Assembly: GCA_009602725.1 (NCBI GenBank)
Contig: WELB01000001.1
Span: 1,074,860 to 1,113,401 of the forward strand
Source: Spirogloea muscicola
Lineage: Eukaryota; Streptophyta; Zygnematophyceae; Spirogloeales; Spirogloeaceae
Direction of reading: 5' to 3'
Length of the DNA: 38,542 nucleotides
Below are positions 3,501 through 32,400 of this stretch, piece after piece. Every line of letters begins with the position of its first letter. The stretch's first letter is position 1. The notes beneath the pieces are model-generated. The model was given only the letters and a program-made list of their open reading frames with translations, did not search any database and was not told the origin of the DNA. The position numbers and the translations under genes are program-made.

Positions 3501-4676
3501 AGCCAGGGCCTTAAGGTACTCACTGCAAATAGCAAGCATAGCACACTTGGTACTGTTCCAGAGCTGAAGCAGGAGTAGCAGCAGATTCAGCACTAGACAG
3601 TGGTCATCTGCATACTTGCCTGGGCATATTCTCATTGTGAACCCGCATCAATTGAGCTTAATTTCCTACTACGTGCCAAGGAATGCCTTCTTGACTGCCA
3701 ATCTGCTATTATCCCCTCTTTGGTCAGGCTGTTACAAAGCAGAAGCTTGGCTACGACCCACTGGAGGTCAACCCAGAGGACATGGTCCGCTTTGCCATTG
3801 AGCAGCCTCAGGTAGGATGCTGTTCCAAGGCATTTGAGACTAAGGCATGAAGGTGACAGTTCATGTGCTTTCCTTGCACCTCTTATGCAATTCTGTAATC
3901 TACTCCTCTGACAATCTCATGCAGGTGATGGCCTCCTACTCTGTGTCTGATGCCGTGGCGACGTACTATCTGTACATGACATATGTGCACCCTTTCATAT
4001 TCTCCCTCGCCACCATCATCCCCATGCCACCACATGAAGTCCTTCGGAAAGGTTCTGGAACACTTTGCGAGATGCTGCTCATGGTGCAGGTGCGAGAGCG
4101 AACTTAAGCCATTGAAATGCCTGCCACTGCACAGACAGGGCCTCCTCTCTTATCAACATTGGGGTTCCAAGACAACATTCTGAAACTTAATGAAAGTGCA
4201 ACCACTCTTTGACAGGCTTTCAAAGGAAAAATTATCTGCCCAAACAAGCACAGCTCTGAGCAGGAGAAGACATACAACAATCACATGTTAGACAATGAGA
4301 CCTACATAGGCGGGCATGTGGAGTGCTTGGAGAGTGGAGTCTTTCGATCTGACCTCCCAACACATTTTCGCCTGGAATCGAAGGCCTACCAGGTGCCTCT
4401 CATATACGGGGCACTTTCACTTACAGGTCGACTATACTTGCCAATGATTGCTGCAGGTTTGTAAGGAACCTGAGCATTGAGGTTCTTGTAAGAGCTATTT
4501 GCACGAAGTAATCTGAAAGATCGGGGAAATTTTCTCTCTGACTGGAGTGAGTACTGGCGCAGGAGCTAATTGACCACCTGGATAGGGATTTGCATTTTGC
4601 AATTGTGGAGGAGAGCAAGCTGGAAATTGCTGATGTCAGCAACTACTCCGAAGTCAAGGAAGCCATTCAGAAGCAG
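590..4676 (+). other. POLE: Pol epsilon N-terminal and proofreading exonuclease exons 1-14
   Basis: Exons read: 590-697, 892-957, 1220-1279, 1693-1788, 2023-2183, 2341-2420, 2536-2753, 2919-3005, 3167-3301, 3393-3515, 3728-3811, 3925-4089, 4216-4392, 4563-4676. Every junction keeps phase. Exo I ([13 protein letters not shown]) falls near residue 226 in exon 7, Exo II ([11 protein letters not shown]) in exon 9 and Exo III ([13 protein letters not shown]) in exon 12, each with its catalytic Asp/Glu. Exon 9 has two possible ends: CAG before a GC donor at 3302, which gives exactly the plant spacing, or a GT donor at 3323, which would add seven residues. The exon 6 start could also be 2338. Confidence 0.9.
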
Positions 4677-17970: not shown

Positions 17971-20696
17971 TCAACCTGCTTGCCGCAGAGTGCAGGCCAC
18001 TGTCTGGGCCCACATTCGGAGGTGCTGCTTCATAGCAGCAGGGTGATTGCTATGGTCCGGTACAATCCACGGCTCTTCCTTGGGGGGCGAGGAGCTCAAC
18101 GAGTCCAATGACTGCCTGCAAAACCTTGGCAGGTCCTCGCTCTGCGTGTCTGAGTATGAAGCATCTCCCTCGCTCTGCACAGACTGATATTGCACAGGAT
18201 AACCCGTTCTCAGTCTTCAATGGTGCCAACCGGTGTCGCAAATCACCGACGCAGGCCAGCGGGACGTACCTCATGACTATAAACAGCTGTTACTACTTGA
18301 GAAGCTAAAGTCATGCAAAACCCACCTTGGCAGGGCTCATAGGGGGGCTGTCAGCGTTTTGCAGCCTTCCTGGAAGCGTTTGCTGACGCAAGATTCGCTG
18401 CTGCACCGTCTCCACAGCTTGGTACAGCCTCAATGCAGGTAGAGTGGAAGCCATCCTTGGGCTGATGACGCTCTGATCAAACTGCACCAGTACCACATAA
18501 CAAGCATGGTCATGGACTGGCAGTGTCCGGACAAGGACTGACTGACTTAGACCTAGGCTGGTGGAAAACTCACATTACCACCTTACCAACTGACGTGTAG
18601 ATTTCGAGTGGAACTGAACCTGTCACCTGTAGCACAAAACCATATGGTAAGGAGCTGTTTGTTAGCTCACGCCTAGGACAGTGAGCAGGAACAGCCTAAG
18701 CGAAAGTGTCATACACAGTGCCTGCAAGTTCCTCTTGCATGAGCCTTGCACAGGATTCTGATCTTCGCCGCCAGCATTCACCTGCAGCAATCATCTGAAG
18801 TGCGACGAACTTGTGACTGTTAAGTGACTAAAGTGACAAGAATGTTCCTAATGCACAAGGCCATAGATGTGTGGACAGGGGTTGAGATTATCATTCCGTG
18901 TGGATTTTGTATGGCTTCAAACGTACCTTGAAACCAAGATCGAAGAACCCGCGCAACTCTTCAATGTCAGCGTCAGTGAGACTCTTGGCTTTCTCAGGAT
19001 ATGCACTTTCCTGCTGCTTCTGAGTGCTTCTACCCATGCAAACATCGGCAGACATACTGCAATAACACCAGCAATGTCATGCAAGCATCAGCAATCTAGA
19101 CAAAGGTCTGCTAGGCTAGAGAGAGGTAGAATGGATAGCTAAGCATGCTGCCAATCATGAGTAGAACAACGTTGGGAAAGGAACACAGAGCTCAGAGATT
19201 ATATAAGGCATTTAGAATATTTAGTGGAATAGTATGTGAAGCCCAGCAGTACATGCATAGCAATACAGGATGCCATGTAATCTATGAAAATTACAGTCAA
19301 AGCATAGCAAGCAGACAAGGCATCATGAGAAGATACATAGAAAGTATGACAATGACAATTATTGGTGCGCTAGCATTGGACTATGGCAGCAAATGTGTCA
19401 ATTCACGACCTAACTTCAACCATTACGAGAACGTCAAAGAGGCATGACCCAAAAATTCCAGGTAGATACGGCAGCTGGAAGAAGGGACATTCCCCGTAAA
19501 TGAAGGACCTGAAGGTGACGACCACCAGATATGACGATTGCATGCAATCAAGAGAATGTAATCACCTTCGTGTTCGGCGAGCCCTGAGAGCTGGTCTGAC
19601 ATGCCGTCGGGAGTCAGAGCCTTGCATCGTGGCCCATCGAACATCCTCTAGGCTCCTTGACAACCTTGGCTTTCTGCCATATCGCTCCTTTCTTTGCCGT
19701 GGCAGAGTTGGGCCGTTACCATCTGGCGCTCTCTGCTCATCTCTTGAAGCTTCGCTTTCCTCGTACTTGTTCTCCTGGTTCTCTGCATGTCACACAAGCC
19801 AAGCCAGACGACATAAGAATATGTTGACAAAGGCAGCGACATTGAAGAACAAAGATTTAGACCACGTTTCATTTCTTCTTGCAATCAAATGATTACCCAT
19901 GCAGACTACGACAGACCAGTGTGGCTAGGCAGCAATGATGTCGATCCATATGGATGAAAACTTGCTGGTCAACAAACACCACATAATATCTGACCTCTTA
20001 CACATAATCATGACAATCATCACTTCCGAGGAAAACTGCTCTAAAATAGGGACGAAGACACACGCAGGCAAAATACGAAGCTCCGGCCAGGTTGTAGCTT
20101 ATTGCACATGCTACTGCATTTGCATACAACAACTTTCAAAGTACTACGACATCAATTTCTTGCACTACAGCATGTGATTTCAAAGTAACGGGCTGACAGC
20201 CGACCTTGTATGGGGGAGAGTACATCCCTGCTTGACTTTGGCCAGGCAACATTGCTGGTGAACCATCCCTCCTCAAGAAGGGTGAGCAGGGTGGGCGATG
20301 GCGTCTTCTTTGAGGAGGACGAAAGGTCCACTTGCACCCTGGGCTCTTTTTCCTCTTCAGAGACTGGCGCTGCTACGTCGAGTCCAAGAGCACTATCAAC
20401 CTGGTGGTCATCAGATGCACCTTGCTGGTCCTCCAAGGCCGCTTGCTCGGTACCGTATTCAGTACTGATTTCAGTTTCTGCCAAGACAGGGGTATCTATG
20501 CTATTTTTCCCCGACAATTCGAGAGATAGCTCATCGCTGTCGTCACGAACGCTGCACATGGCACAGAACATCAGAGAGCATGTCAGAGCATGTCAGAGCG
20601 TGTCTCAAGCATGAGCGACGTCAACCGTCCGCAAGGCTGCCTGAGAAGCATGCGCACGAAGGCCTGCGCCGCACACCTGCTGCTGGTGGCGGACAT
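17971..20696 (-). CDS. DUF1685-family protein (7 exons)
   Basis: Function unknown; DUF1685 is a family of mostly plant proteins. Exons in coding order: 20696-20677, 20551-20205, 19782-19720, 19620-19566 (or from 19647), 19056-18927, 18481-18326, 18183-17971. They join in phase to about 327 codons plus TGA at 17973-17971. Diagnostic pieces are KAKSLTDADIEELRGFFDLG, then STLPALRLYQAV, then HLRMWAQTV with ACTLRQ at the C-terminus, the same order as in plant members (LTDxDLxELxGxxDLGF, LPALxLxxAV, LRxWAQxVAC). The N-terminal half is acidic and serine-rich; TLLTLLEEGWF in exon 2 may match the conserved xLLxLxxxxWF of plant members. Exon 2 could instead end at 20421, which is also in phase. The start ATG at 20696-20694 was chosen because it gives a clean donor and phase; the first two exons are the least certain. 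Introns over 300 bases (18482-18926, 19057-19565, and 19783-20204, which is about 420 bases) hold nothing I recognise. Confidence 0.75.
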
Positions 20697-21080
20697 GCCC
20701 GGGCACGGGACCCTGGGCGCGGGAGGAGCGCGGCCGTGGAAGCACATGGAGGGCGAGGCCCGCACGGAGACGGAGGCTGGCGGCGCAGGGTCAGCGCCCC
20801 GGCGGCGGCGGCGACGCCGGCCACGCGCGTGGCGCGAGCATCGTGCGCTGCGCGCGCCGCGGCGGCGGCGGCGGCGGCGCTGGTCTGAGTCGTCGGGCGA
20901 GAGAGGGCCTGGCGTGGCTGGGGGGTGGTGGGCGGGCGGGCGGGCCAGCGGGAGTGGAGCGGGCGAGGGTGGGGGGAATCCACCGCCGTGTCCGGGAACA
21001 GCACCTTCACCGACGGAGCCGCAGCCGCACCACGAACGGGCGGCGCCGTTGGGAAGTGAGCTCTTGCCTCGCTTGCTTGT
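20697..21080 (-). promoter_or_regulatory. GC-rich, CGG-repeat promoter/5' region of the DUF1685 gene
   Basis: Strongly GC-rich, with CGG runs at 20801-20819 and 20859-20879 and a GGGCGGGCGGGC tract near 20931. It sits immediately upstream of the proposed start of the minus-strand DUF1685 gene and resembles the CCG-rich flank at 1-330 upstream of Pol epsilon. Long open frames on both strands here come from triplet bias. Probable promoter and 5' UTR; no specific factor site is claimed. Confidence 0.4.
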
Positions 21081-21173
21081 TTGTGCCTTTCAGCTTTTCG
21101 GCCCCTTTGGGACCTTCTCGTCAATCCTTGTCCGGCTGGCTTCTCCACAGCCAGTGCCGTAGATGAAGAAGCA

Positions 21174-21569
21174 AGCGCGGCCAGATGGACTGGTGGCTGG
21201 GAGAGGCCAGCCCAAAAGGAATGGACAAGGACAGAAGAATCCTGGTGCTAAGTACTAAGACAGCAGCAAGGGGACTCTCAGTAACCTCTAGTCTGAAGAT
21301 GCAAGTCCGAATAGTAGGTTGGAAGGGTCTTCTCTGTCCATTCCTTTTGGAGAAGTGGCACTCCCAATGGGGGCAAGGGCTGCGAAAAGCCAGCCCAAAA
21401 AGAATTCACAAAGGTTCAGAGGGGCCTAAGAGCGGTGAGCAGCTACAAAGGGGCCTGAGGATGCTATGGTAAAACAGGGGGAGGATGGATCACTCAGTAA
21501 GTACGAGTGAGGAGCCTCAGATCCGATTTGGGCTGGCTTCTCCCAGCCACCAGTCAATCTGGCCGCGCT
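21174..21569. mobile_element. ~396-bp element with 41-bp terminal inverted repeats
   Basis: Bases 21174-21214 recur as a reverse complement at 21529-21569 with two mismatches in 41. A second, inner inverted pair (16 bases, CCAAAAGGAATGGACA) lies at about 21212-21227 and 21335-21350. The interior contains repeat copy A. The ends carry the GGGCTGG/CCAGCC hairpin motif. The size and ends resemble a miniature inverted-repeat element or a fold-back derivative of the local repeat family. I could not define a target-site duplication. Confidence 0.55.
21352..21526 (-). repeat. Long repeat, copy A
   Basis: About 175 bases running from GAAGTGGCACTCCCAATGGG to GAGCCTCAGATCCGA, shared almost exactly with copies B and C. 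It includes a GGGCTG...CAGCCC hairpin at 21377-21396. Read on the minus strand, 21526-21494 encodes SDLRLLTRTY-stop, the end of the unknown element ORF, so the repeat is the 3' end plus downstream region of that element in antisense orientation. Confidence 0.8.
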
Positions 21570-21629
21570 TTCCTTTCACAGCCCCAGCCCCCCTTTTTCT
21601 TTTTGGAAGAGCCACTTTCCCTCACTTTC

Positions 21630-21682
21630 TTTTTGGGCTGGCTTTTCGCAGCCCTTGCCCCCAGTGGGAGTGCCACTTCTTC
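21630..21682 (+). repeat. Partial copy of the long repeat, opposite orientation
   Basis: About 53 bases match the first part of copies A-C as a reverse complement, including the GGGCTGGCTTTTCGCAGCCC hairpin at 21635-21654, with one or two differences. Confidence 0.75.
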
Positions 21683-21699
21683 TCTCGCACTTGGCTGGG

Positions 21700-21880
21700 C
21701 CGCCGGCGGCAGCACGCAACAGCCACCGCCGGACCGAGCTCTGACCCCAACCGACCTAGGAGCCGCTCGACCTGCCATCGACCTTGCTCCACACCGCCGC
21801 CGGCGCCGGCGACGGCGCCGGCGGGGTGGGACCCAACCGGCCGCTTCGCCGGCGACGGCGGAGCCCGTCATTGACGGCTG
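21700..21880. other. GC-rich block with CGCCGGCG palindromes inside the repeat cluster
   Basis: A GC-rich block with overlapping CCGCCGGCG/GCCGGC palindromes, densest at about 21795-21835, sits between repeat copies. It differs in composition from the A/T-containing repeats on both sides. I see no supported gene; frames on both strands are long because stop codons are rare at this GC content. Confidence 0.4.
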
Positions 21881-22053
21881 TTCGGCTCCTGCTCCCCCCT
21901 TTTGTTTTCACAGCCGATTCTTTCATATCAGCAGCCGCTTTCTTTTTTTTTGTTTTGTTAGAGTAACCGCGGCCAGATTACTGGAGGCTGGGAGAGAAAA
22001 GAAAGAGCGCGCCCATTGAGGATATGGGCTGGAACAGCCAGCCCAAAAAAGAA

Positions 22054-22175
22054 GAAGTGGCACTCCCAATGGGGGCAAGGGCTGCGAAAAGCCAGCCCAA
22101 AAAGAATTCACAAAGGTTCAGAGGGGCCTAAGAGCGGTGAGCAGCTACAAAGGGGCCTGAGGATGCTATGGTAAA
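22054..22175 (-). repeat. Long repeat, copy B (truncated)
   Basis: Matches copy A for about 122 bases from GAAGTGGCACTCCC through GGATGCTATGGTAAA and then diverges, so it lacks the ORF-end part. A GGGCTG...CAGCCC hairpin lies at 22079-22098. A perfect 7-bp-stem hairpin (GGGCTGG, 5-base loop, CCAGCCC) sits just upstream at 22026-22044. Confidence 0.8.
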
Positions 22176-22201
22176 GCTGCTATGGCACCTTCGTGCCGGA
22201 A

Positions 22202-22372
22202 GAAGTGGCACTCCCAATGGGGGCAAGGGCTGCGAAAAGCCAGCCCAAAAAGAATTCACAAGGTTCAGAGGGGCCTAAGTGCGGTGAGCAGCTACAAAGG
22301 GGCCTGAGGATGCAATGGTAAAACAGGGGGAGGATGGATCACTCAATAAGTACGAGTGAGGAGCCTCAGAGC
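22202..22372 (-). repeat. Long repeat, copy C
   Basis: Near-identical to copy A over about 171 bases, with a one-base deletion (CACAAGG for CACAAAGG) and a few substitutions. On the minus strand 22372-22343 still reads ALRLLTRTY-stop. Its start only 27 bases after the end of copy B suggests tandem or nested insertion. Confidence 0.8.
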
Positions 22373-22539
22373 CCTAGCTGCTGTCTCTGGCTCTGTCCAG
22401 GGGACCCACTTCCAGGACCCTAGCATCTCTGACCTGCGGCTGCTCAGCAGGAATTACTGAGCCATTCGTAGCTGCTTTGTTTCTTCTTGTGCTTGTTTTT
22501 CTTAGCACTTCCCCTGGCTCCCTTCTCGTACTTTGTCCA

Positions 22540-22592
22540 TTCTTTTTTGGGCTGGCTGTTCCAGCCCCTATCCTCTATGGGGCGCTCTTTGG
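22540..22592 (+). repeat. Hairpin module GGGCTGG...CCAGCCC followed by CTATGGGGCGCTCTTT
   Basis: TCCATTCTTTTTTGGGCTGG, then a 5-base loop, then CCAGCCCC and CCTCTATGGGGCGCTCTTT. The stem at 22549-22567 is perfect (7 bp). The same arrangement recurs at 22798-22853 and 28470-28535, and in altered order or orientation at 21997-22044, 23037-23120 and 23200-23240; 23342-23366 has only the CTATGGGCGAGCACTTTCTT half. It is the recurring unit that flanks the ORF tails. Confidence 0.75.
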
Positions 22593-22603
22593 CTCATGCG
22601 GTC

Positions 22604-22711
22604 CACGCGCGGGCTGGCCGTGCTATGGCTGCTGCTTCCGGGTCTCGGCAAAGTGCCGCTTCTCCTGCTCCGAGTTACTCTGATCTGCTGTTGCTCACAC
22701 GTGGATACTGA
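22604..22711 (+). pseudogene. 36-codon C-terminal tail of an unknown element ORF (copy 1)
   Basis: Encodes H-A-R-AGRAMAA at the start and SDLLLLTRGY-stop at the end; 35 residues plus TGA. It has exactly the same length as the tails at 22992-22885 (-) and 28048-28155 (+), and shares the H..AGRA.AA and SDL..LTR.Y blocks while the middle varies. It begins just after one hairpin module and is followed by another, so the copy is cut off at its 5' end. No complete parent gene is in this window. Confidence 0.7.
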
Positions 22712-22797
22712 GCAGCCATCTGCATCTCCCTCTGCACCATCTTGCACTTTGTAGTGTAGTCCTTTTTCAGCACCTCTTTCTTTGGCTTTGAACATTG

Positions 22798-22853
22798 TCC
22801 ATTCTTTTTGGGTTGGCTTTGCCAGCCCCTCTTCTCTATGGGCGAGCTCTCTC
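22798..22853 (+). repeat. Hairpin module, second clear copy
   Basis: TCCATTCTTTTTGGGTTGGC and then TTTGCCAGCCCC followed by TTCTCTATGGGCGAGCTCT, the same order of parts as at 22540-22592. One base in the left stem (GGGTTGG) breaks perfect pairing. It lies about 90 bases after the stop of tail copy 1, where the 3' end of the element would be expected. Confidence 0.7.
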
Positions 22854-22854
22854 T

Positions 22855-22917
22855 CTATGGTAAAACAGGGGGAGGATGGACCACTCAGTAATTACGAGTG
22901 AGGAGCCTCAGATCCGA
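22855..22917 (-). repeat. Partial copy D of the long repeat
   Basis: Shares the last ~63 bases of copies A and C (CTATGGTAAAACAGGGGGAG through GAGCCTCAGATCCGA) with about two substitutions, and continues directly into the minus-strand ORF tail ending at 22885. This is the copy that shows the ~180-bp repeat and the ORF end belong to one unit. Confidence 0.75.
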
Positions 22918-22992
22918 CAGACTAGCTGCCGGGAAGCTATCACCCTGACGAAAGCCAGAGCCCGCAGCGAGAGCACGGCCAGCTCGCAGATG
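22885..22992 (-). pseudogene. 36-codon C-terminal tail of an unknown element ORF (copy 2)
   Basis: The minus strand reads H-L-R-AGRALAAG at the start and SDLRLLTRNY-stop at the end, again 35 residues plus TGA. The conserved blocks sit at the same positions as in the tails at 22604-22711 and 28048-28155, without insertions or deletions. Upstream on its own strand it runs into the TTCTTTTTTGGG edge of a hairpin-type module, so this copy is also truncated. Confidence 0.7.
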
Positions 22993-23036
22993 CCCAAAAA
23001 AGAATGAGCAGAGTACAAGAAGCCCAAGAAGAAGGG

Positions 23037-23366
23037 GGGCCAGCAAAGCCAGCCCAGAAATGGCCCCCTTTCTCTATGGGCGCGCACTTTCTTCCAGAAA
23101 GAATGGACAATGTCAAAAGCCAAAAAACAAAATACACACAGCCAGGCAGCTAGAGAATAAGACACGACGAAGCACAGGAAGCTCAATACCCCCGGGAGAG
23201 GCCAGCCCAAAAGAAGAAAGAAAGTGCGCGCCCATAGAAGGGCTCAATGGAAGGGCTCACTTTCTTTGGGCTGGCCTCCAATAAAGTCTTTGCTTCCGTT
23301 TGGAAGAGCCACACTCATTCTTCCCACAGCCAATGCTTTCCTCTTCTCTATGGGCGAGCACTTTCT
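23037..23366. repeat. Rearranged hairpin-module fragments
   Basis: Includes GGCCAGCAAAGCCAGCCC (about 23038-23055), TTTCTCTATGGGCGCGCACT (about 23070-23089), AGAAAGAATGGACAATGTCA in reverse orientation (about 23097-23116), GGGAGAGGCCAGCCCAAAAG (about 23194-23213), its CTATGGGCG partner inverted near 23225-23240, and CTCTATGGGCGAGCACTTTC (about 23344-23363). All are pieces of the modules at 22540 and 22798, shuffled in order and strand. Confidence 0.65.
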
Positions 23367-23545
23367 TTTTTCCAGCCTCCACACGGTCCCGTCATCGGAG
23401 AGATTTCGCATCTCGGTCCTGCCTAAATGCGCTTCCCCCAGCCCACCAGCTGTGCGGTCTCCAGCAGATTCTTTCGATTCTCTTCTTATCCGTCTGGCGA
23501 GCCGGCCGCCCGAACAACATGCACGACACGTGGGCTTTAAGGATA

Positions 23546-23830
23546 ATGCCGCCCACTCCACCGTCTGCTCAAACGCCGTGGCCCGCTACCACGCGGCACG
23601 CAAGTCGTGTCACTGCGGCCTCTGGTGTCCTCTATGCGTTGCGGCGGCTTTCCCTTTTCTCACATCCGCGATTATCTGCTGCTTGTGCGTGGCGCCTCCA
23701 TGTAGCTGCCACCGATACTCCCCGCCTCTGGCACCAAGTTGTAGCGAGCATGCTACCAGCAGATGATCCATGGGTGCAGGAGTTGGAAAAGCGGCAAGCA
23801 CTAGGTGCCAAAGCTTTCACACTTATCTAA
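23546..23830 (+). CDS. Possible small F-box-like protein (94 aa)
   Basis: A 94-codon frame from ATG 23546 to TAA 23828-23830. Residues about 25-66 (ALRRLSLFSHPRLSAAC, then W, then VAATDTPRLWHQVV) follow the spacing of an F-box, the short helical motif that ties substrate adaptors to SKP1 in SCF ubiquitin ligases: leucine-rich start, RLs..C..W, and a closing D..LW. The usual N-terminal proline is not evident and no substrate-binding repeats follow, so it could be a stand-alone F-box protein, a truncated gene next to the repeat cluster, or chance. The frame is open further upstream, so the start is not certain. It ends 84 bases before the convergent nucleotidylyltransferase gene. Confidence 0.4.
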   Translation: MPPTPPSAQTPWPATTRHASRVTAASGVLYALRRLSLFSHPRLSAACAWRLHVAATDTPRLWHQVVASMLPADDPWVQELEKRQALGAKAFTLI

Positions 23831-23914
23831 AGCACCTCACAACCAGAGAAGTATATAGACTTCTGATGGACGTAAAACGCATTGTCATGGTGAATACGTT
23901 AGAAATCTGAAATG

Positions 23915-26900
23915 TCAGCTTGAGACCTTGCTACGAATTTCTGTCGAGGATATGTCCATACGAAAGTTCTCTTCCGGGATGGCCTTGAAGAGATCCGCAA
24001 TTTCGTGTGGTACATCAATATCAGAGAGCACCTGCAGCCCCTCGTGAGGAAAGGTAGGAAGTCAGATAGCAAGCCCCCGAGGCAGCAGGGCCTTATGTGA
24101 GGCTTACTGCACCGACAAGATGTCAAATTGGAGATGACAATACATCAAGTGGTTAAGAAGCTTCTCACCATGAATTTGCCATCTACTAGGCGGCCAGCAA
24201 CAAGGAAGTCACACCCTTGGCCTTTTATGTCTGCGAGGGTGTCCAGCATCTTTTGGAAGCTACTATCATAGTACTTGGGCTGCAACCGTGCACAGGCTAG
24301 CTCACAAATCAGAACAGAAAGAGCGGCAGGGAGCACTTGAAGAGCTTGAAGAGCTTTGATATTACTTTGACGTTGCTGGCTCAATCATAGCAAAGATCTG
24401 TGGCATTTCGAAATTTGTATAAGGGTCGTCATACTGGTCATTCTGCTTGCCAACCACCACAAAAACCACGTACATCGACTAGTCGAACGGCAGTGTCACT
24501 TCCAATCACAAATGTGCTTTCTGGCAACAGCTCTGCCTTCTTGAAAAATAGCGGCTGGTTTGTAATGACCACTGAAAGACCTACATAACCACACATACAG
24601 AGCACGGAGCTCAGAATTGACAATAGTGCTAGACACTGACCACCTCATGACCACAATCTGCAGCTGTTGGTAATATTGCCCACTGTAAGCAAAGACAGAC
24701 CGAGCAAGCTGCATCCCATTCTTAAGTACAGTTGTGCTAACCTGTCACTAGTGTCTGCAAAGTATTCTTGTGCAAGTGTATCCAGGACAACAGACTTTTA
24801 TGCACCAACTTGCACATTTCACATCTTCCCCATGTTCTGGGATCTTGACTTGCTAGACAAGTCCACTTACGAGTACACTTACCTCTACGCTCGAATTGAG
24901 ACAACCTTTGCTTGATGACCGTCAGACTCAGAGGCGGTTTATCAGCATTTATAGCTGATATTTCAAAGCATGGGAAGGCATCCACCTGGTTTCTGCAATG
25001 GATTGCAAAGGAATGCGATGATGTGGAAGCCCAGCATGAATACATGTGTCACTTCCTATCCAGCCTACACAAGGTCAGACTGCAAATCTGACCACCAAAC
25101 AGTGCTAAGAGAGAGTCTGATGGTGTACTTGCAAGCTGCATCCAAGAGCTTGAGATGTCCATCATGTAGGGGATTGAAGGATCCAGATAACATAATCCGT
25201 CTTCCATCTCTTGGCGAATCTACTGGCCAGGTGCCTGTTGACGTTGATCAAAGAAAGCAAACTTGTCGCATGAGCAACTAGCCAGAGGAGCTCGTCCTTT
25301 CCTCATCTCACCTGCTGCCAACCTAGCTACTAAGCTGTTCATCTCGTGACAAGAATTTGCAGTAAGATATGCAGCTTGTGTAACACATGATGACGAGTTT
25401 GTGGAGCACATCAAAGGGGTGCTCTGCTTAAGTGCACTTGCAAGAACCTGGCGAGCTGACCATGGGAATTTCCCCCTCAAGGAGCTGCGTGAGCTGCTCC
25501 TCTGCAGAGTACACTGTGTGTTTCTTCTGTACCACCTCCTCACCTTCCTTGAGCTGGATTGGTATTCTTTGATTGACGTTGCAGGCATCAGCTAAAGCCT
25601 GTCAGCTTGGCCGTCCAGAGTCAGTCCACGTTTAAGTTGCTGGCTTGACAAGGAGAGGAAAATATGCGTTGTCACCAACAGATGTTCCTCTCAGGGGTGT
25701 GCCACTACATACTTAGACAATATTCTAATGCAGGTCTGTGCAGATGGATCTAATCGTGCCCGTCAAAATTACCAACAGTAGTGATGATGGGTAATGGTTG
25801 CTTGCTCATTGGCAGTAACATCATAGCTAAATACAGATAAAGGTTGGTGTAAGCTCATTACAAGCACATTGGTCTGTCTGCCTCTGCAGAGGGTCTATCA
25901 GAAAGTCTGTAGGGTATCAGCGAACCTGGAGGACCAGCAGACTGCTGATACCATCCTCCTCTGATCTACTTCTTTCCCCCTGATACAAGGCTGCTACCAT
26001 GTTTGCTGCAAGGAGATGCTAGAGAAGCTATCCTCCTGGTGATGCATCTTGGCCATATCACCTCACAATTGATGCTTGCACGTGAACAGCGATGCCAGTA
26101 CGTGATTTGATTGATCTCAATAACAAGCCAATCAAAAAGAGGCCGGGATTGCCAACCTTGGTCAAGGTCAGCCCATACTCCCACTTTTCTGCCTGAGTAC
26201 GTACTGCCACAAAGCATCTTCGATGCTAGCAGAAACAACACAACCTTCAGCTTAATTAGCGCCGTACTTTGGAAGTGTATGTGCCGCTTTGAAGTGCAAT
26301 GCGAGGAGAATCTGTCACAGCTTATGCACAGGAATCGATAGCCCATTGACATGAAAAGGCTGCACCTGTGAGGTCCTTTTTTGGCAGGGACAGAGGCAAG
26401 AGCGCAAGTGCAGCCAATGCCGGCTACACTGTATCCTGGAAAACAGTGTTTGACAGATCAATAGCTGGTTGTGGCAGTTTCCAAATAGTCTACGAAGCAG
26501 CTACCTGGTGGCTTGCTTTGGCTTCCGAGAGCCGAAACAGATTGTTCCCATCTGTCGCCACTAGCATCTGTCGCCACTGTCGCCACTAGCTATCAATATC
26601 ACTTTAGGACTTGTTTGAACAATAATTGTGCCAGGGGTTTGCGTATGAAACTGTTGACAAGGTACATGCTCATGTCAGATGATGTGTACCGGGTGTAGCG
26701 AGCTTCAGAGCACGATTGTAGGCTGCTACTGCAATGTCATGTGCAGTAGCCTCACTTGTGAATTGCTGAGGTACCTGCACGATTAAATTGTCAATGTAAG
26801 CTTGGGCACTGAGCTTCACAACCTGTCAGGCCAGCTTTGGCCTGACAATCCCAGCAGCTCAGCAGCACCGTCAACAGTAGGTGTTCTCATTGTCGTCGGT

Positions 26901-27455
26901 CAACTTTCATTTGACCGACGAGCTACATGACTAGCTAGTGATATCTGCAAGGACTGGGGATAATCTACTGAAGCCCTTGGTGGAACAATATTTGATGAAG
27001 TAGGAGTTAGATGCTTCCTATTAGCTGCACACGCATGTGCAGAGTCAGATGTGGCACTGCCTTCTGACTATACTGAGTACTTCGATGTGTTTGAAGACCA
27101 CTGACCACCCTAAGACTTGATACACAGAGGACTCAATCTGCACGTCACCTTGCCAAGGACATTGACCATTGACCGCCGAGAGTATGGTATTGTTGCCTCA
27201 AGAAGCGTATTTGAGGCGCCTGGGACAGATAGAAGCCAACTCAACGCCTGTCACCAGCTGAGACATCGTTTTAGAACAACGAGTATGTATATGAGCAACA
27301 ACAAGTTGCAACAATGTATGTGAGTCAGTCTCTCAGCTGGCAAATCAGCAACAATCAAGACAGAGAACCTGGGAGGCGCCGCCGGACAGGCAGATGACAG
27401 CTCGTGTTGGCGCTGCATGAATGGCCTCCACGGCCGCCCGCACGGCCACGTCCAT
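23915..27455 (-). CDS. Nucleotidylyltransferase-superfamily protein with CinA-like N-terminal region (12 exons)
   Basis: Exons in coding order: 27455-27369, 27247-27149, 26774-26690, 26435-26366, 26115-26067, 26018-25926, 25598-25448, 25234-25129, 24992-24883, 24571-24474, 24279-24169, 24031-23915. They join to about 391 codons; exons 5-6 have weaker boundaries. The C-terminal half is a cytidylyltransferase-fold enzyme: GSFNPLHDGH is the nucleotide-binding signature, followed by FEISAINADKPPL, FVIGSDTA and RMDISSTEIRSK (the ISSTxIR motif). Such enzymes transfer AMP or CMP to a phosphorylated substrate; NMN/NaMN adenylyltransferases and pantetheine-phosphate adenylyltransferase are relatives. 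The N-terminal half (LSGGASQALSWLLSVPGASN, YSRRSM, then VAGIGCTCAL) resembles CinA/nicotinamide-nucleotide amidohydrolase domains. The whole order matches a plant protein family known from Arabidopsis (I recall At2g01220). Substrate is unknown. No targeting peptide is evident after MDVAVRAAVEAIH. Confidence 0.88.
26551..26589. repeat. Short tandem repeat in an intron
   Basis: CTGTCGCCACTAGCAT and variants are repeated two and a half times, inside an intron of the nucleotidylyltransferase gene. It looks like ordinary replication slippage. Confidence 0.6.
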
Positions 27456-27759
27456 ATGAACAAGCGCCGACAGGCACTTGGACCTACTACTTGTTGCTGG
27501 CCTGCAGGGAGGACCTTGTTGTAACTCGATGGTACTCAGCTACACCATCTGTAGCCGACCTCCTGACTGATCTTTCATTCCCGCCTGCGTGCGTCGCGGC
27601 AGCAGGAGCGGAAGAGAGGTGGAACGCGCGCTCTGTCGGACGACGCGCGGCAACGACTGGGGCTGCTGGCGGTAACTCATCCCGCGAGGGGGTAGTGGTT
27701 GCTGATACTGGCGATCGTGAAGGCTTGCCAAGTGCGTGCCAAGAGAGAGCGAGCTCTAG

Positions 27760-28155
27760 CGAAGGAGGTGGCAACGAAGGGCCAGCCCAGAAGACACTTC
27801 GAATAACGTCTCGACCCCCCTGCACTACTCAGACTACCCCCGCAGTGACCACCTCCTCCCGGCCGCAATCGACACTTTCGGCTGCTTGGGTCCTCGCTTC
27901 CATACCCTACTCGAGAACATAGCGAGTCTGGGATATGCACGACGCGAGGATATGCTCCCAGCCCAGATGGGTATACCGGCAGCCTATCTGTCATTTCTGC
28001 GACGTCGAGTGTCAACCTGTCTGCAACGAGCTCAGGCGTATGCTCTGCATCAGAAAGCTGGTCGAGCCTTAGCTGCTGGCACAAGAGCTAGTCAATTGCC
28101 GTCCGGTATTCGAGCGTCAGCTAGCGACCTCTATGTGCTGACTCGTGGTTACTGA
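27760..28155 (+). pseudogene. 131-codon ORF fragment of an unknown transposable element
   Basis: Open without a clear start from just after TAG 27757-27759 to TGA 28153-28155. The C-terminal 36 codons (28048-28155) are the third copy of the H..AGRA.AA ... SDL..LTR.Y tail. Before them come AAIDTFGCLGPRFHTLLENI and, further on, FLRRRVSTCLQRAQAYAL. An (A/E)TFG..GP block followed by a basic, leucine-rich LQRA/LQRGNA block recalls the segment behind the reverse transcriptase in some algal and plant retroelement polyproteins, but this is from memory and is only a suggestion. From 27890 on, the sequence is also the left arm of the inverted repeat. Confidence 0.5.
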
Positions 28156-28922
28156 GCGGGTCAGCTTAGCAGCAGGTGACGTACATTTGTCCAATGTGCT
28201 TGCCTTTGTACTTGGCCACACATGGCCTCCCCATCTCTTAATATACACGCATTTTCTGTTCGGCCACCCTGCAAAAGACGGGATACAATTTGTGGAAAAG
28301 CCGCAACATGGGATGACATACCAAAAGCAAAGCCAGTTGCTTCAATGAGAAGCAGTGATTAGCCACTCAGTAATGATCCCATTGTCGACTAGATGCAAGT
28401 GGAGTAGACTTGCAGCTACTATGTCCCACTTGTACGTGCTCACACAGGTTTGATGCCTGCTCCTTTGACATTGTCCATTCTTTCTGGGCTGGCTTTGCTG
28501 GCCCCCTTTCTCTATGGGCGCGCTCTTTCTTCTTTCTTCTTTCTGGCCAGAATAAGGAAATGCGTGTATATTAAGAGATGGGGAGGCCATGTGTGGCCAA
28601 GTACAAAGGCAAGCACATTGGACAAATGTACGTCACCTGCTGCTAAGCTGACCCGCTCAGTAACCACGAGTCAGCACATAGAGGTCGCTAGCTGACGCTC
28701 GAATACCGGACGGCAATTGACTAGCTCTTGTGCCAGCAGCTAAGGCTCGACCAGCTTTCTGATGCAGAGCATACGCCTGAGCTCGTTGCAGACAGGTTGA
28801 CACTCGACGTCGCAGAAATGACAGATAGGCTGCCGGCATACCCATCTGGGCTGGGAGCATATCCTCGCGTCGTGCATATCCCAGACTCGCTATGTTCTCG
28901 AGTAGGGTATGGAAGCGAGGAC
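27890..28922. repeat. Large inverted repeat: 365-bp arms, 303-bp spacer
   Basis: Left arm 27890-28254 and right arm 28558-28922 are reverse complements with one mismatch noticed (ATA versus ATG near 27972/28840) and no indel: paired positions always sum to 56812. The spacer (28255-28557) holds a hairpin module at 28470-28535. The arms contain the same ORF end in opposite directions (TGA at 28153-28155 and at 28659-28657). It lies between two divergent genes, the nucleotidylyltransferase (5' end 27455) and SHOC1. Such identity indicates a recent inverted duplication, or gene conversion between arms. Confidence 0.92.
28470..28535 (+). repeat. Hairpin module in the spacer of the inverted repeat
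   Basis: CATTGTCCATTCTTTCTGGG, then CTGGCTTTGCTGGCC, then CCCTTTCTCTATGGGCGCGC. Same order of parts as the modules at 22540-22592 and 22798-22853, about 5.5 kb away, which ties this locus to the repeat cluster at 21168-23370. Confidence 0.75.
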
Positions 28923-28971
28923 AAAGGAAGGGTCCAAAGCACCATCCTGCGATACTCTCGCCCTGCTTCAT
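28657..28971 (-). pseudogene. Second, inverted copy of the element ORF fragment
   Basis: Open on the minus strand from 28971 to TGA at 28659-28657. Within the arm (28922-28657) it encodes the same residues as the left copy apart from one Met for Ile. Outside the arm the two sequences differ, so the frame happens to stay open into unrelated flank. Its last 36 codons (28764-28657) are the conserved tail. Confidence 0.6.
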
Positions 28972-29170
28972 TAGCCCCCTGCTAGCCTAGGGCTTCGCTT
29001 AGTGTAGCGCCCTGTTAACACTTCCTTCGCCCTTTTTGTATTGGCTCGGCTTGGACTCCCTTTTACTTCATGAGTACCCCGCGTCTTACCTCTTCCGCGA
29101 GATTGAGCTGCAGGCCACGGGACGACGCGCAGACCTCGCATCCTCGCCCGCCGCTGAGCCCGCCCTTGTC

Positions 29171-29246
29171 AGGCGCGGCTCCAGTGTGTCAAGGCTCACT
29201 ACGGGCTACCTAGGCGCGGCTCCAGTGTGTCAAGGCTCACTACGGG
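29171..29246 (+). repeat. Direct repeat, 35 identical bases with 41-base period
   Basis: 29171-29205 and 29212-29246 are identical, starting AGGCGCGGCTCCAGTGTGTC, separated by CTACCT. The duplication lies about 250 bases upstream of the first recognised SHOC1 exon, in its promoter, 5' UTR or an unrecognised 5' exon. Confidence 0.85.
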
Positions 29247-29495
29247 TAGCTGCTGCCGCATGGCTGACAAAGCCTGACTTGAATCCAATGTCATCACCAT
29301 GGACCGTCACGCTGGCGTCAGCTGCAAGTTCTTCTGATCAGAGGTGCGACCAAGACTTGACCATAGACCTGCTTGGTGCTGCGCGCAAGCGGCTGGACTG
29401 CTGCCTGCACGCTGTCGCGGCAAATTAGCGCAGGCTCACGACTTTGCCACCTGCTTTAGCTAATTACTGCTCTACTTCCGCTGCTGGCTTTGCAG

Positions 29496-32400
29496 GCGCT
29501 TGCTCTGCTAGCTTCAAGAAGTATGGTGACAGATATGCAGGAAAGTGCGGCTGGATCTGGCCGGGATATTGCAGAGCCAGCAATAGGGCCCAGCAAGAGC
29601 AGTAACTGCAGGCTTCCTTGCGATCTACGTCCAGCTGCGCTTGACATCCCAGAACATGATACGCTTGCTGACAGCGACAGACCTGCGGCAATGTCCATTC
29701 AATCTGTGATGCAAGGTTGGACAGAAGAATGGCCCCATGACCAACCTACATCCCTTGCATCGCTCCCAGTCCCGGCCTTTCATGAGTTTGAAGCAATACC
29801 AAAGCTCCATCGTAAGAGAGCACTGTGCCTGGGTGCTCTTGAGTGTATGACTGCTCTACAAGCTCAGACTTCTAGTCACCGGCCTCCCACCCTCGAGGCC
29901 CCATGCATTGCCTCTTACAGCCAGAACGAGGCCAGCATTATGACAGGTCTTCTAAGCTTGGGGACACAGTGCTGCCTCCATTGCCCAAGCACAACAACCA
30001 TGGACATGGCTCTGCCTTCAAGCAGCTTCGAGAAGAGAATTGTCATGCCAACTCTAGTCCTGGACGGAATATCCATTCGTTCCCTGCCAATTCCCTCTGT
30101 TCCGACAGCCAGTTCCAACGGCTTCGATATGACCTACGTGCTGCAACTAGCTGAGAAGGAGTCACCACAGGCCTCTGTGAGTCTCTACAACACTCTGATG
30201 ACATCCAGTGTCACTCTCACGGACAAGCTGGAGAGGTGCCTTCCAGAGACACCGGTGCAGGTCACATCACAACGACTCCCACTACTTCAAGTAGTGATGG
30301 ATAGAGAAGTGTCACTAGCAGACACAGATACGACAGGCATCCAGCGGGAACGGTCACAGAAGGAAGGGCAGGTACCCCTGCTTACAGGCATCCCGCCCAG
30401 CTTGGTTCATCTGCCTGATAACCAAACACTGCTAGCAGTATCAAACAGGCCCTGTGCAAGCCTCGGAAAGGGTGGAGAAGCTTCACAAGCAAGAAGATTA
30501 CCTGCTCCAACCATGTCAAGCGAGCTCAGCTTCTACATAAGGACAAGGCTGCCTTGTGACCTCAACAGTGAGACGCTGAAACACTGCATAGAGGAGCAAA
30601 AGGGTGTGGAGCTGCACTTAATCAGGCCTTCAGACTCACTCTGTCAGATTCTTAGTGCTATGAAGGAGGACTACACCAGGGTTGAGGGGGATTGGGGACC
30701 GCAAGAAGGATCCAGTCATCATTTTGGCTTGGATGCACAGGGCACTGCTGCTCTGCGAGCCAAGATTGAGGGCATGGCTCAAGGGGTGGCAAGGACTCAG
30801 CTGCCAGCTCTTCGGAGTCTTGTGGCTATGCATACTCTGCGGCAGGCAGCTCGGGCGCTGGCAGACTATGGGATACGTGTCGCCCATTTATACTTGGAGC
30901 AGGCTCTTCAGCGGATGACATTCTTAGAGGCAGCAGCAACTAGGTGCCGCACAAGGCTCACTCTCGCATTTGAGGAGGTGGAATCTGGCCTGCTGGAAGA
31001 TCATCCAAAGCTCGCAGTTTTGATGCAAACTCTCAGAAGTCCGCTAGAGCTTCAGAAGCGGGCAGGCAACACCCTTGCAACCCTCATAATATTGGAACAG
31101 AGGGGCTTCTTCACTCTCTTCAGACCCTTGCTGAGCTTGGGATTGAGACCTTACCAGGTGGACAAGGAAGGCTCGCTCCTGCACAATGGAGCATTTGACA
31201 AGACAATGACACATTTGCTGAATGACATGATTGAGCAGATTCTGGCTGTTGCAGACTGCCTGCTCCTGCCTGAAGCGTACGCATAAGCTCTGCACAATCT
31301 TCTTCTGCAAAAAGCTACGACCGCACCTTATGCTCCTCATTACTGTAGTGCACAATTTGGCAGACTCTTGTCCTTTCTAGGGCCCCAGTCTACATGCATG
31401 TATATCTTATCCAGGGGATGGTTTGTCATGGGCTCAATGCTGTGTATGTCATGCAGGTACATCACAGAGTCATTCCAGTGGCAATGCTTCTCAACTGTTG
31501 TACTATATGCCTCAGAAGCTTCGCAAGAAGTTCTGGAGGCTTTGAAGCAAACGCAATGTACAGTGCACCACTTCAAGATGGAGATTGAATATTCCAAACT
31601 ACTGAGAAATTGCGGTGGAACTGAGAGACTGACACCAGGACTACACGAGCCACCTCTTATCACAGATGGCAACATTAATCAGCAACTTGAGAAGGAAAGC
31701 TGCTGGAATGCCCCGATGGTTTGCCCAACAAGCAAGCAAGCAGGGTGTCATTGCGATATGATCTTGGTGGTAAATATCAGCAGGACAGGAAGCCAACCTG
31801 GTACTCGGACTGGGCGCTGGCATTTGCAAGATCACTTACTGAGATGGGAGGCAGACAATGTGCAGGTAAAAGTCATATGATGGGAAGAATAATACTCTAT
31901 CGTACAGTATGCAATAGTCGAGCAATACCAGTCCTTAATTTCACAGCATGTCGCAGGTTATTGAGAGGGAGCTACTGCTTCCACTGGACATCATTTTGAG
32001 TCCTACAGCAGCCTTCGCACTCTACACAGAGGAGAAGCTTGAGCTTGACGCCAGACCACTCGCAAAGTCCTCAACCAACTACGTGGAAATTATTGTCGAT
32101 GACCACTTGAGAGCAATCAGCTGCGCATATGACCTGGTCATCTTGGTAGGGCCTTCTGCATCATTTGGCTTGACATATTTGAAGGGCCTTCTGTCTGGGC
32201 AAGTACATATGGCCGTATTTCACCCAGCTTGCCCGCGTATTGACGCCTGCTTAGTTCCCGATAGTCCTGCTTGCTCTGTGATCAACTGCTGTTGCAGGTC
32301 TTCGAGGGTGGTTGGCAATTCACAAGCAGAATGCTTCATGTTCTGGACGACCTTTACGCTGCTGCGCTTGGACTGGACATTCAGCTCCAATGCTTTCTAT

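Follow-up and report, generated by a model that had tools for sequence, protein, structure and literature searches.

Three 35-residue protein tails as probable C-terminal ends of an R2-like retrotransposon superfamily

The locus and its protein tails

The 38,542-nt stretch of DNA analysed here (the window) carries three short reading-frame ends, namely tail B at 22604–22711 (+), tail C at 22885–22992 (−) and tail A at 28048–28155 (+). Very probably each is the C-terminus of the only protein encoded by members of a superfamily of non-long-terminal-repeat (non-LTR) retrotransposons of the restriction-like endonuclease (RLE), R2-like type, present in the genome as many 5′-truncated copies. The tails translate as an earlier reading of the letters without database searches (the sequence-only reading) had given them, each with 35 residues and a stop codon; all three start with H..AGRA.AA and end with SDL..LTR.Y. 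Among them, DNA identity is 0.50–0.64 and protein identity is 0.49–0.66. An inverted twin of tail A, again with 35 residues and a stop, is found at 28657–28764 (−), where it ends the minus-strand frame 28657–28971.

Genome loci used for comparison carry L numbers. Tail A belongs to a family A copy at 27823–28255 (+), truncated at position ∼3539 of the ∼3970 of the element, with a 3′ untranslated region (UTR) of ∼100 nt that ends in CGCA and four Ts. This copy is 99.8% identical to full-length A (L022 from position 1479), and no flank duplication was seen. The second family A copy, at 28558–28922 (−), is truncated at 3606, contains the twin tail, is 100% identical over the aligned part and has a 6-nt flank match, TTCCTT. 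The twin is thus a second copy, as had been noticed, but no palindromic duplicate; palindromic duplication was rejected, since the truncation points (element positions 3539 and 3606) and the flanks differ, and for the same reason the two A copies are separate insertions facing tail to tail. The family B copy at 22582–22852 (+) consists of the tail, the 3′ UTR and a terminal hairpin (∼22811–22828), and over 266 nt it matches the 3′ end of the element with a 1130-codon frame in L024 at 99.2% identity. It is inserted in a family C copy, with the flank duplication CTCTATGG at 22574–22581 and 22853–22860. The interrupted family C copy, at 22853–22993 (−), retains its tail and the start of the 3′ UTR and matches L027 (96% over 137 nt in DNA; 97% in protein). 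A fourth tail remnant, at 22367–22460 (+), was absent from the earlier list of 36-codon tails; it is cut within the conserved block, so that 30 of the 35 residues are left (end SISDLRLLSRNY). It is part of a family D copy at 22367–22581 (+), which continues into a 3′ UTR and a terminal hairpin at ∼22550 and is 83% identical in DNA to L032 over 225 nt (tblastn, 1e-10).

The last 35 codons of six further long genome frames (L031–L036) all start with H and end with SD(L/F)..L(T/S)RGY, and the tails are therefore not chance. In these six and the three window tails the distance from H to the stop is exactly 35 residues, AGRA is kept and the end reads SD(L/F)..L(T/S)R(G/N)Y. The proportion of nonsynonymous differences (pN) is lower than that of synonymous differences (pS) in 36 of 36 pairs of the nine tails (mean 0.283 versus 0.680), and in the two other frames of the same DNA the relation is reversed (pN/pS of 0.446/0.314 and 0.449/0.287). 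Together with the fixed 35 residues, this indicates that the length and sequence of the tail are held at the protein level, and it bears out the claim of the sequence-only reading that these are real protein ends; they are under selection. L032 and L035 share 84% identity along the entire protein, against 46–67% for the remaining pairs of L031–L036, so the nine tails are not all equally independent. Two loci with no intact in-frame tail, L030 and L037, were excluded from the tail comparison; L030 was kept in the protein alignment described below (alignment A1) and L037 was used in neither.

The equal tail length that had drawn attention to the family thus reflects conserved spacing inside the protein and not equal truncation; 36 codons are no truncation unit. 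The histidine is only the start of the conserved block, and copy starts vary around it, falling 22 nt before H in copy B (22582) and one base before it in copy C (22993), and lying at 27823 in A(+) and at 28922 in A(−). Truncation at a fixed 36-codon point was rejected because the 5′ ends vary in this way. The short DLRLLTRTY-stop pieces noted earlier in the neighbouring repeats are indeed C-type copy ends at 21464–21526 and 22313–22375, but the third repeat member, 22855–22917, is tail C itself.

The parent protein

Pfam gave no result for the window frames alone. When the genome was searched with the frame holding tail A, and likewise with tails B and C, at least 150 scored matches were obtained for each; the family therefore has many further genome copies, the lack of which would have spoken against the earlier reading. 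For tail A, nine of the matches listed lie in frames of exactly 1267 codons. One of these, 1546–5349 of L022, matches a reverse transcriptase (RT; RVT_1, 1e-18) and a weak C2HC finger in Pfam. Tail B is the end of the 1130-codon frame of L024, and tail C ends frames of 718 (L027) and 683 (L028) codons. Some very long open frames are runs of N (seen in L023, L025, L026 and L029); none of these was used.

A genome search with the RT of family A listed 122 matches of 50–100% identity (121 scored of 1595 candidates). Among those listed, 11 are identical over 330 residues, nine of them with the 1267-codon frame. Eight representatives of the RT matches were retrieved, six of which have an intact in-frame tail. 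The ten sequences of alignment A1 share one architecture: a proline-rich N-terminus with one or more fingers, an RT with (Y/F)ADD, a linker, a CCHC motif, an endonuclease-like region and the tail. RVT_1 was matched in all ten (Pfam). The N-terminal finger matches zf-C2HC_2 at 4e-4 in family A, under the curated cut-off, and some other members have weak C2H2-type matches; a C..C..H..C pattern at A residues 247–266 is aligned in nine of the ten sequences, the ones that reach that far. A profile of the ten members, run against the PDB, found three R2 proteins first (7e-12 to 4e-11), followed by PDB entry 8c8j (7.6e-4) and LINE-1 ORF2 (1.5e-3 to 5.3e-3). In collections of viral contigs and genome contigs, 18 and 226 pattern matches, respectively, were obtained for possible relatives, and none was confirmed.

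A second, different-looking set of RT sequences is present in the genome (e.g. C33:908349–908831 and C170:276821–277303), with RVT_1 matches down to 8e-39; at nine of the places listed, out of at least 150, the frame has exactly 1237 codons.

The endonuclease-like region

For long interspersed nuclear elements (LINEs) of the RLE type, passages of one source describe a CCHC knuckle spaced CX2–3CX7–8HX4C, together with a histidine close to where helix 1 begins and an acidic residue that follows strand 1. The core is PD..D, the catalytic K is displaced and lies in KX2KY, and a GXW comes after the fourth strand (PMC5678591). In an alignment of nine C-termini (alignment A2), residues C26, C28, H40, C44, H54, E75, D96, D111 and K138 are invariant (9/9), R93 likewise; KX2(K/H)Y has its Y in 8/9. 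The endonuclease thus looks like a match to most of the published RLE signature, an assignment based on the order and position of motifs.

Full-length elements, copies and mobility

Over 3968 bp the elements at L021 and L022 show no difference; their upstream flanks are unrelated, and their 3′ flanks (L008 for L021) are different as well. Two identical copies of this length in different flanks indicate that family A has recently been mobile. The 5′ ends of ten copies were inspected (L021, L022 and L059–L066), and six begin at AACGGCTCCCC. L021 begins about three bases later, L065 joins slightly inside and L064 could not be placed; in L060 the string is present but separated by other bases from the element sequence that should follow it. 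The shared 5′ end and the defined 3′ end together give element A a length of ∼3.97 kb. It has one open reading frame and a 3′ UTR of ∼100 nt ending in CGCA and Ts.

The 3′ end of A, CCATCTCTTAATATACACGCATT, occurs exactly 428 times in the genome; the reversed control sequence occurs 0 times. From the list of these pattern matches 20 copies were taken, of which 18 aligned (L041 and L042 gave no usable row). In six (L038, L048–L051 and L057) the 5′ flank contains N. All 12 copies with readable 5′ flanks start at 3576–3913 of 3967, leaving 55–392 nt. Loci L002–L020 are best protein matches and not a random sample of A; rows L007, L008 and L019 are cut by the end of the locus. Several A copies (L022 from ∼5450; the 3′ flanks of L003, L012 and L014) adjoin the ends of other families of the superfamily, as nested insertions.

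Insertion sites

Flank matches of at least 6 nt were found in 19 of the 35 A copies with both flanks readable, against a mean of 7.3% (highest 20.6%) in 500 re-pairings of the flanks. Matches of at least 8 nt were found in 8/35 (the longest, 20 nt, in L009), against a mean of 0.2% (highest 3.2%). For family B the counts were 10 of 17 distinct copies at 6 nt or more (control mean 21.1%, highest 41.2%) and 6/17 at 8 nt or more, the window copy with its 8-nt duplication included (control 2.6%, highest 20.0%). In the B count, L014 and L084 are one insertion and were counted once, five 51–53-nt ends of other families were excluded, L077 was skipped, and L078 and L085 gave no rows. After CGCA, T follows in 41 of 41 A rows and a second T in 40; at position 5 there are 31 Cs and 10 Ts. 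In 13/41 A rows a run of at least four Cs is found no more than 14 nt from the 5′ junction; for comparison, such runs occur in 4.3% of sequence windows in the same loci and, at −60 to −46 from the junction, in 5/41. The flank duplications are short and are seen in about half of the copies that can be read, at sites that are rich in pyrimidines and often of the CCTY type. The flanks vary from copy to copy and include other elements, so that no fixed 28S ribosomal DNA site is used.

Immediately downstream of some A insertions (L002, L003, L009, L010 and L014) there is a pyrimidine tract and then CAG, an arrangement resembling a 3′ splice site; this was seen by eye.

The 3′ end and its hairpin

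A GGGYTGG-type hairpin precedes the terminal motif in seven of nine non-A representatives (B, C, C2, L032, L034, L035 and L036); L033 has part of it and L031 is without it. The A and A2 ends have other short GGCC hairpins. The ends of B, L032 and L034 fold far better than shuffled sequences (z of −3.35, −3.70 and −3.65, respectively). In ten aligned 3′ ends, three of them from the window, 83.9% of cells pair, compared with at most 51% when the alignment is slid, the structure having been taken from the same sequences. The hairpin-arm motif ATTCTTTTTGGGCTGGC has 2193 exact occurrences in the genome and its reversed control 0. Rfam gave no match over 20500–30000 of the window. Recognition of the 3′ hairpin by the RT is perhaps to be expected by analogy with stringent-type LINEs, as described in part of one source (PMC3747384).

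The repeat cluster and other features of the window

The cluster at 21.2–23.0 kb consists largely of nested 3′ ends of the superfamily. Besides copies B, C and D it contains two further family C 3′ ends with tail end, 3′ UTR and hairpin, at 21351–21526 (−; 99% identical to L027 over 173 nt) and 22195–22370 (−; 98% over 177 nt), a family C 3′ UTR with hairpin at 22052–22175 (−; 99% over 124 nt) and a family C 3′ terminus with hairpin at 21627–21683 (+; 98% over 55 nt), the last two also by comparison with L027. Two other 3′ termini with hairpins are an L036-like one at 21527–21578 (+; 91% over 53 nt to L036) and an L035/L032-like one at 21998–22056 (−; 91.5% over 59 nt to L035). Outside the cluster, between the two A copies, an orphan B/L034-type 3′ terminus with hairpin and end motif lies at 28464–28530 (+) and is 87% identical to 22792–22854 (alignment A3).

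Some of the short cluster repeats could instead be non-autonomous elements resembling short interspersed nuclear elements (SINEs) with a borrowed hairpin 3′ end. The copies at 21527–21578, 21627–21683 and 28464–28530 hold little beyond the hairpin, and exact hairpin-arm motifs (2193) far exceed the RT matches listed (122). Against this, the larger window copies (A, B, C and D) run into the coding tail to differing extents, the pattern expected of random 5′ truncation, and we consider a SINE-like origin unlikely.

A further cluster repeat, a 153-nt stretch at 21167–21317, has 85% identity with the DNA that follows the L034 element (4224–4375). The 598-codon open frame at 29490–31286 (+) has no Pfam match at E values of up to 1.

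Interpretation and alternatives

An RT followed by an R2-type set of RLE motifs places the element among the RLE-encoding non-LTR retrotransposons, which are already known, and gives a name to a parent protein that the sequence-only reading had left without one. The short flank duplications, the truncation and the shared 3′ ends agree with that reading in its attribution of the 5′-truncated, 3′-retaining copies to target-primed retrotransposition. In such a mechanism the protein would bind the 3′ UTR of its own mRNA, perhaps at the terminal hairpin, and the RLE would nick the purine strand opposite CCTY. Reverse transcription would be primed at the nick, starting from the RNA 3′ end, and would usually stop early; the outcome would be a 5′-truncated copy with a few Ts at the junction. 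The 35-residue end most likely completes the RLE/RNA-binding C-terminal lobe, a putative role.

Several observations weigh against an R2-like element of this description. A proline before D96, as in the PD of the published core, is found in 0/9 C-termini (L, A or V instead). The CCHC residues are present in 9/9 but spaced CX1CX11–12HX3C and not as published, and GXW appears as GXXW (8/9) or, in family A, as GXXF. With a profile of the C-terminal domain alone, neither R2 nor any other nuclease was found in the PDB up to an E value of 10, and it is for this reason that the RLE assignment is a motif-based one. The single A protein ranks group II intron and retron-type RTs (2.9e-4 and 5.1e-4) above R2 (7.2e-4). 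Flank matches of 6 nt or more are lacking in 16/35 A copies (window A(+) included) and 7/17 B copies. For the C, A and A2 ends, folding is scarcely better than in shuffled sequences (z of −0.58, −0.75 and −1.12), and compensatory changes in the 3′ hairpin were found in 0/15 pairs, with no excess over shuffled letters; recognition of the hairpin is accordingly argued from analogy.

The Rubisco small subunit (PF00101) was found at four genome loci, each split at the same place in the model, one of them on a contig, C8, of more than 1.4 Mb. A nuclear rbcS points to the green lineage, and a green host is therefore likely. For such a host, Dualen/RandI, which carry an apurinic/apyrimidinic endonuclease (APE) as well as an RLE, have to be considered, as the RLE-bearing LINEs named for green algae in passages of two sources (PMC8226300; PMC3747384); the elements would then be Dualen/RandI seen without their N-terminal APE. 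The first ATG, however, comes ∼0.1 kb into full-length A, and no APE lies upstream of it. No APE (endonuclease/exonuclease/phosphatase domain) was found in the ten members with Pfam at E values of up to 1, and their N-terminus has fingers instead. The ten genome matches to PF03372 (27 candidates) include none less than 157 kb from an RT match among those listed. Dualen/RandI in this form is quite improbable, and an APE-type element, whether L1 or Dualen, was rejected, as the profile is nearer to R2 than to LINE-1 and no APE was found. A further alternative is that the tails end a normal host gene family and were dispersed as processed pseudogenes, whose 5′-truncated, 3′-anchored copies would look similar; membership of a host gene family was a point that the sequence-only reading had itself held against its proposal. 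This was rejected as extremely improbable, because the long frames that end in the tail encode an RT, at many places in the genome.

The RLE-type, R2-like superfamily thus remains the preferred parent of the tails. It was called unrecognised by the sequence-only reading; RLE-type LINEs are a known class, but this branch of it seems little described. Passages of one source give Dualen as encoding APE plus RLE and list CRE, R2, R4, NeSL and HERO as other RLE elements, with Utopia reported from Amoebozoa, SAR and Opisthokonta (PMC4640811). For green algae, the passages name Dualen and L1/Zepp-like LINEs in relatives of Chlamydomonas (PMC8226300) and RandI, RTEX and L1 (PMC3747384). No description of RLE-only LINEs in green algae was found in titles and the starts of abstracts; Repbase and most subscription journals lay outside this search, and absence from print is not claimed. 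Our results suggest that the green lineage has RLE-only LINEs; for that lineage the literature passages name only Dualen/RandI. Tentatively, the superfamily may be a clade of its own within the green lineage, made up of RLE-only LINEs and either sister to CRE, R2, R4, NeSL and HERO or outside them, with its own 35-residue end, a 3′ RNA structure common to its families and a less strict, pyrimidine-rich target behind its genome-wide spread; this is possible, though we would not expect it. Such a clade could be the relative from which the APE-plus-RLE Dualen arose in green algae.

RLE-type LINEs are mostly described as site-specific, and R2 is under development for gene insertion. A superfamily with what seems to be an R2-like enzyme, inserted at many short pyrimidine-rich sites and with identical full-length copies in one genome, offers natural variants for asking what makes target choice strict or relaxed and how RNA 3′ ends are recognized.

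Comparison with known systems

The elements resemble R2 of animals in their single open reading frame, N-terminal finger(s), RT, CCHC motif, RLE motifs with displaced K/Y and target-primed mode, and R2 proteins are the closest solved structures by profile. They differ from R2 in that their targets are dispersed and pyrimidine-rich, whereas R2 uses one fixed 28S site, and in the other spacing of the knuckle, the absence of P before the first D, the conserved 35-residue C-terminal end and the probably photosynthetic host. HERO, likened here by description alone, is also of the RLE type and has many non-specific families according to passages of one source (PMC4640811). With Dualen/RandI they share the RLE type, the green lineage and 3′ ends other than poly(A) (described in part of PMC3747384), but Dualen also encodes an APE and none was found here. 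Like Zepp and ZeppL of Coccomyxa and Chlamydomonas, named in passages of PMC8226300, they are probably LINEs of green algae; those elements are of the L1 type, whereas the RT described here is nearer to R2 than to LINE-1 by profile.

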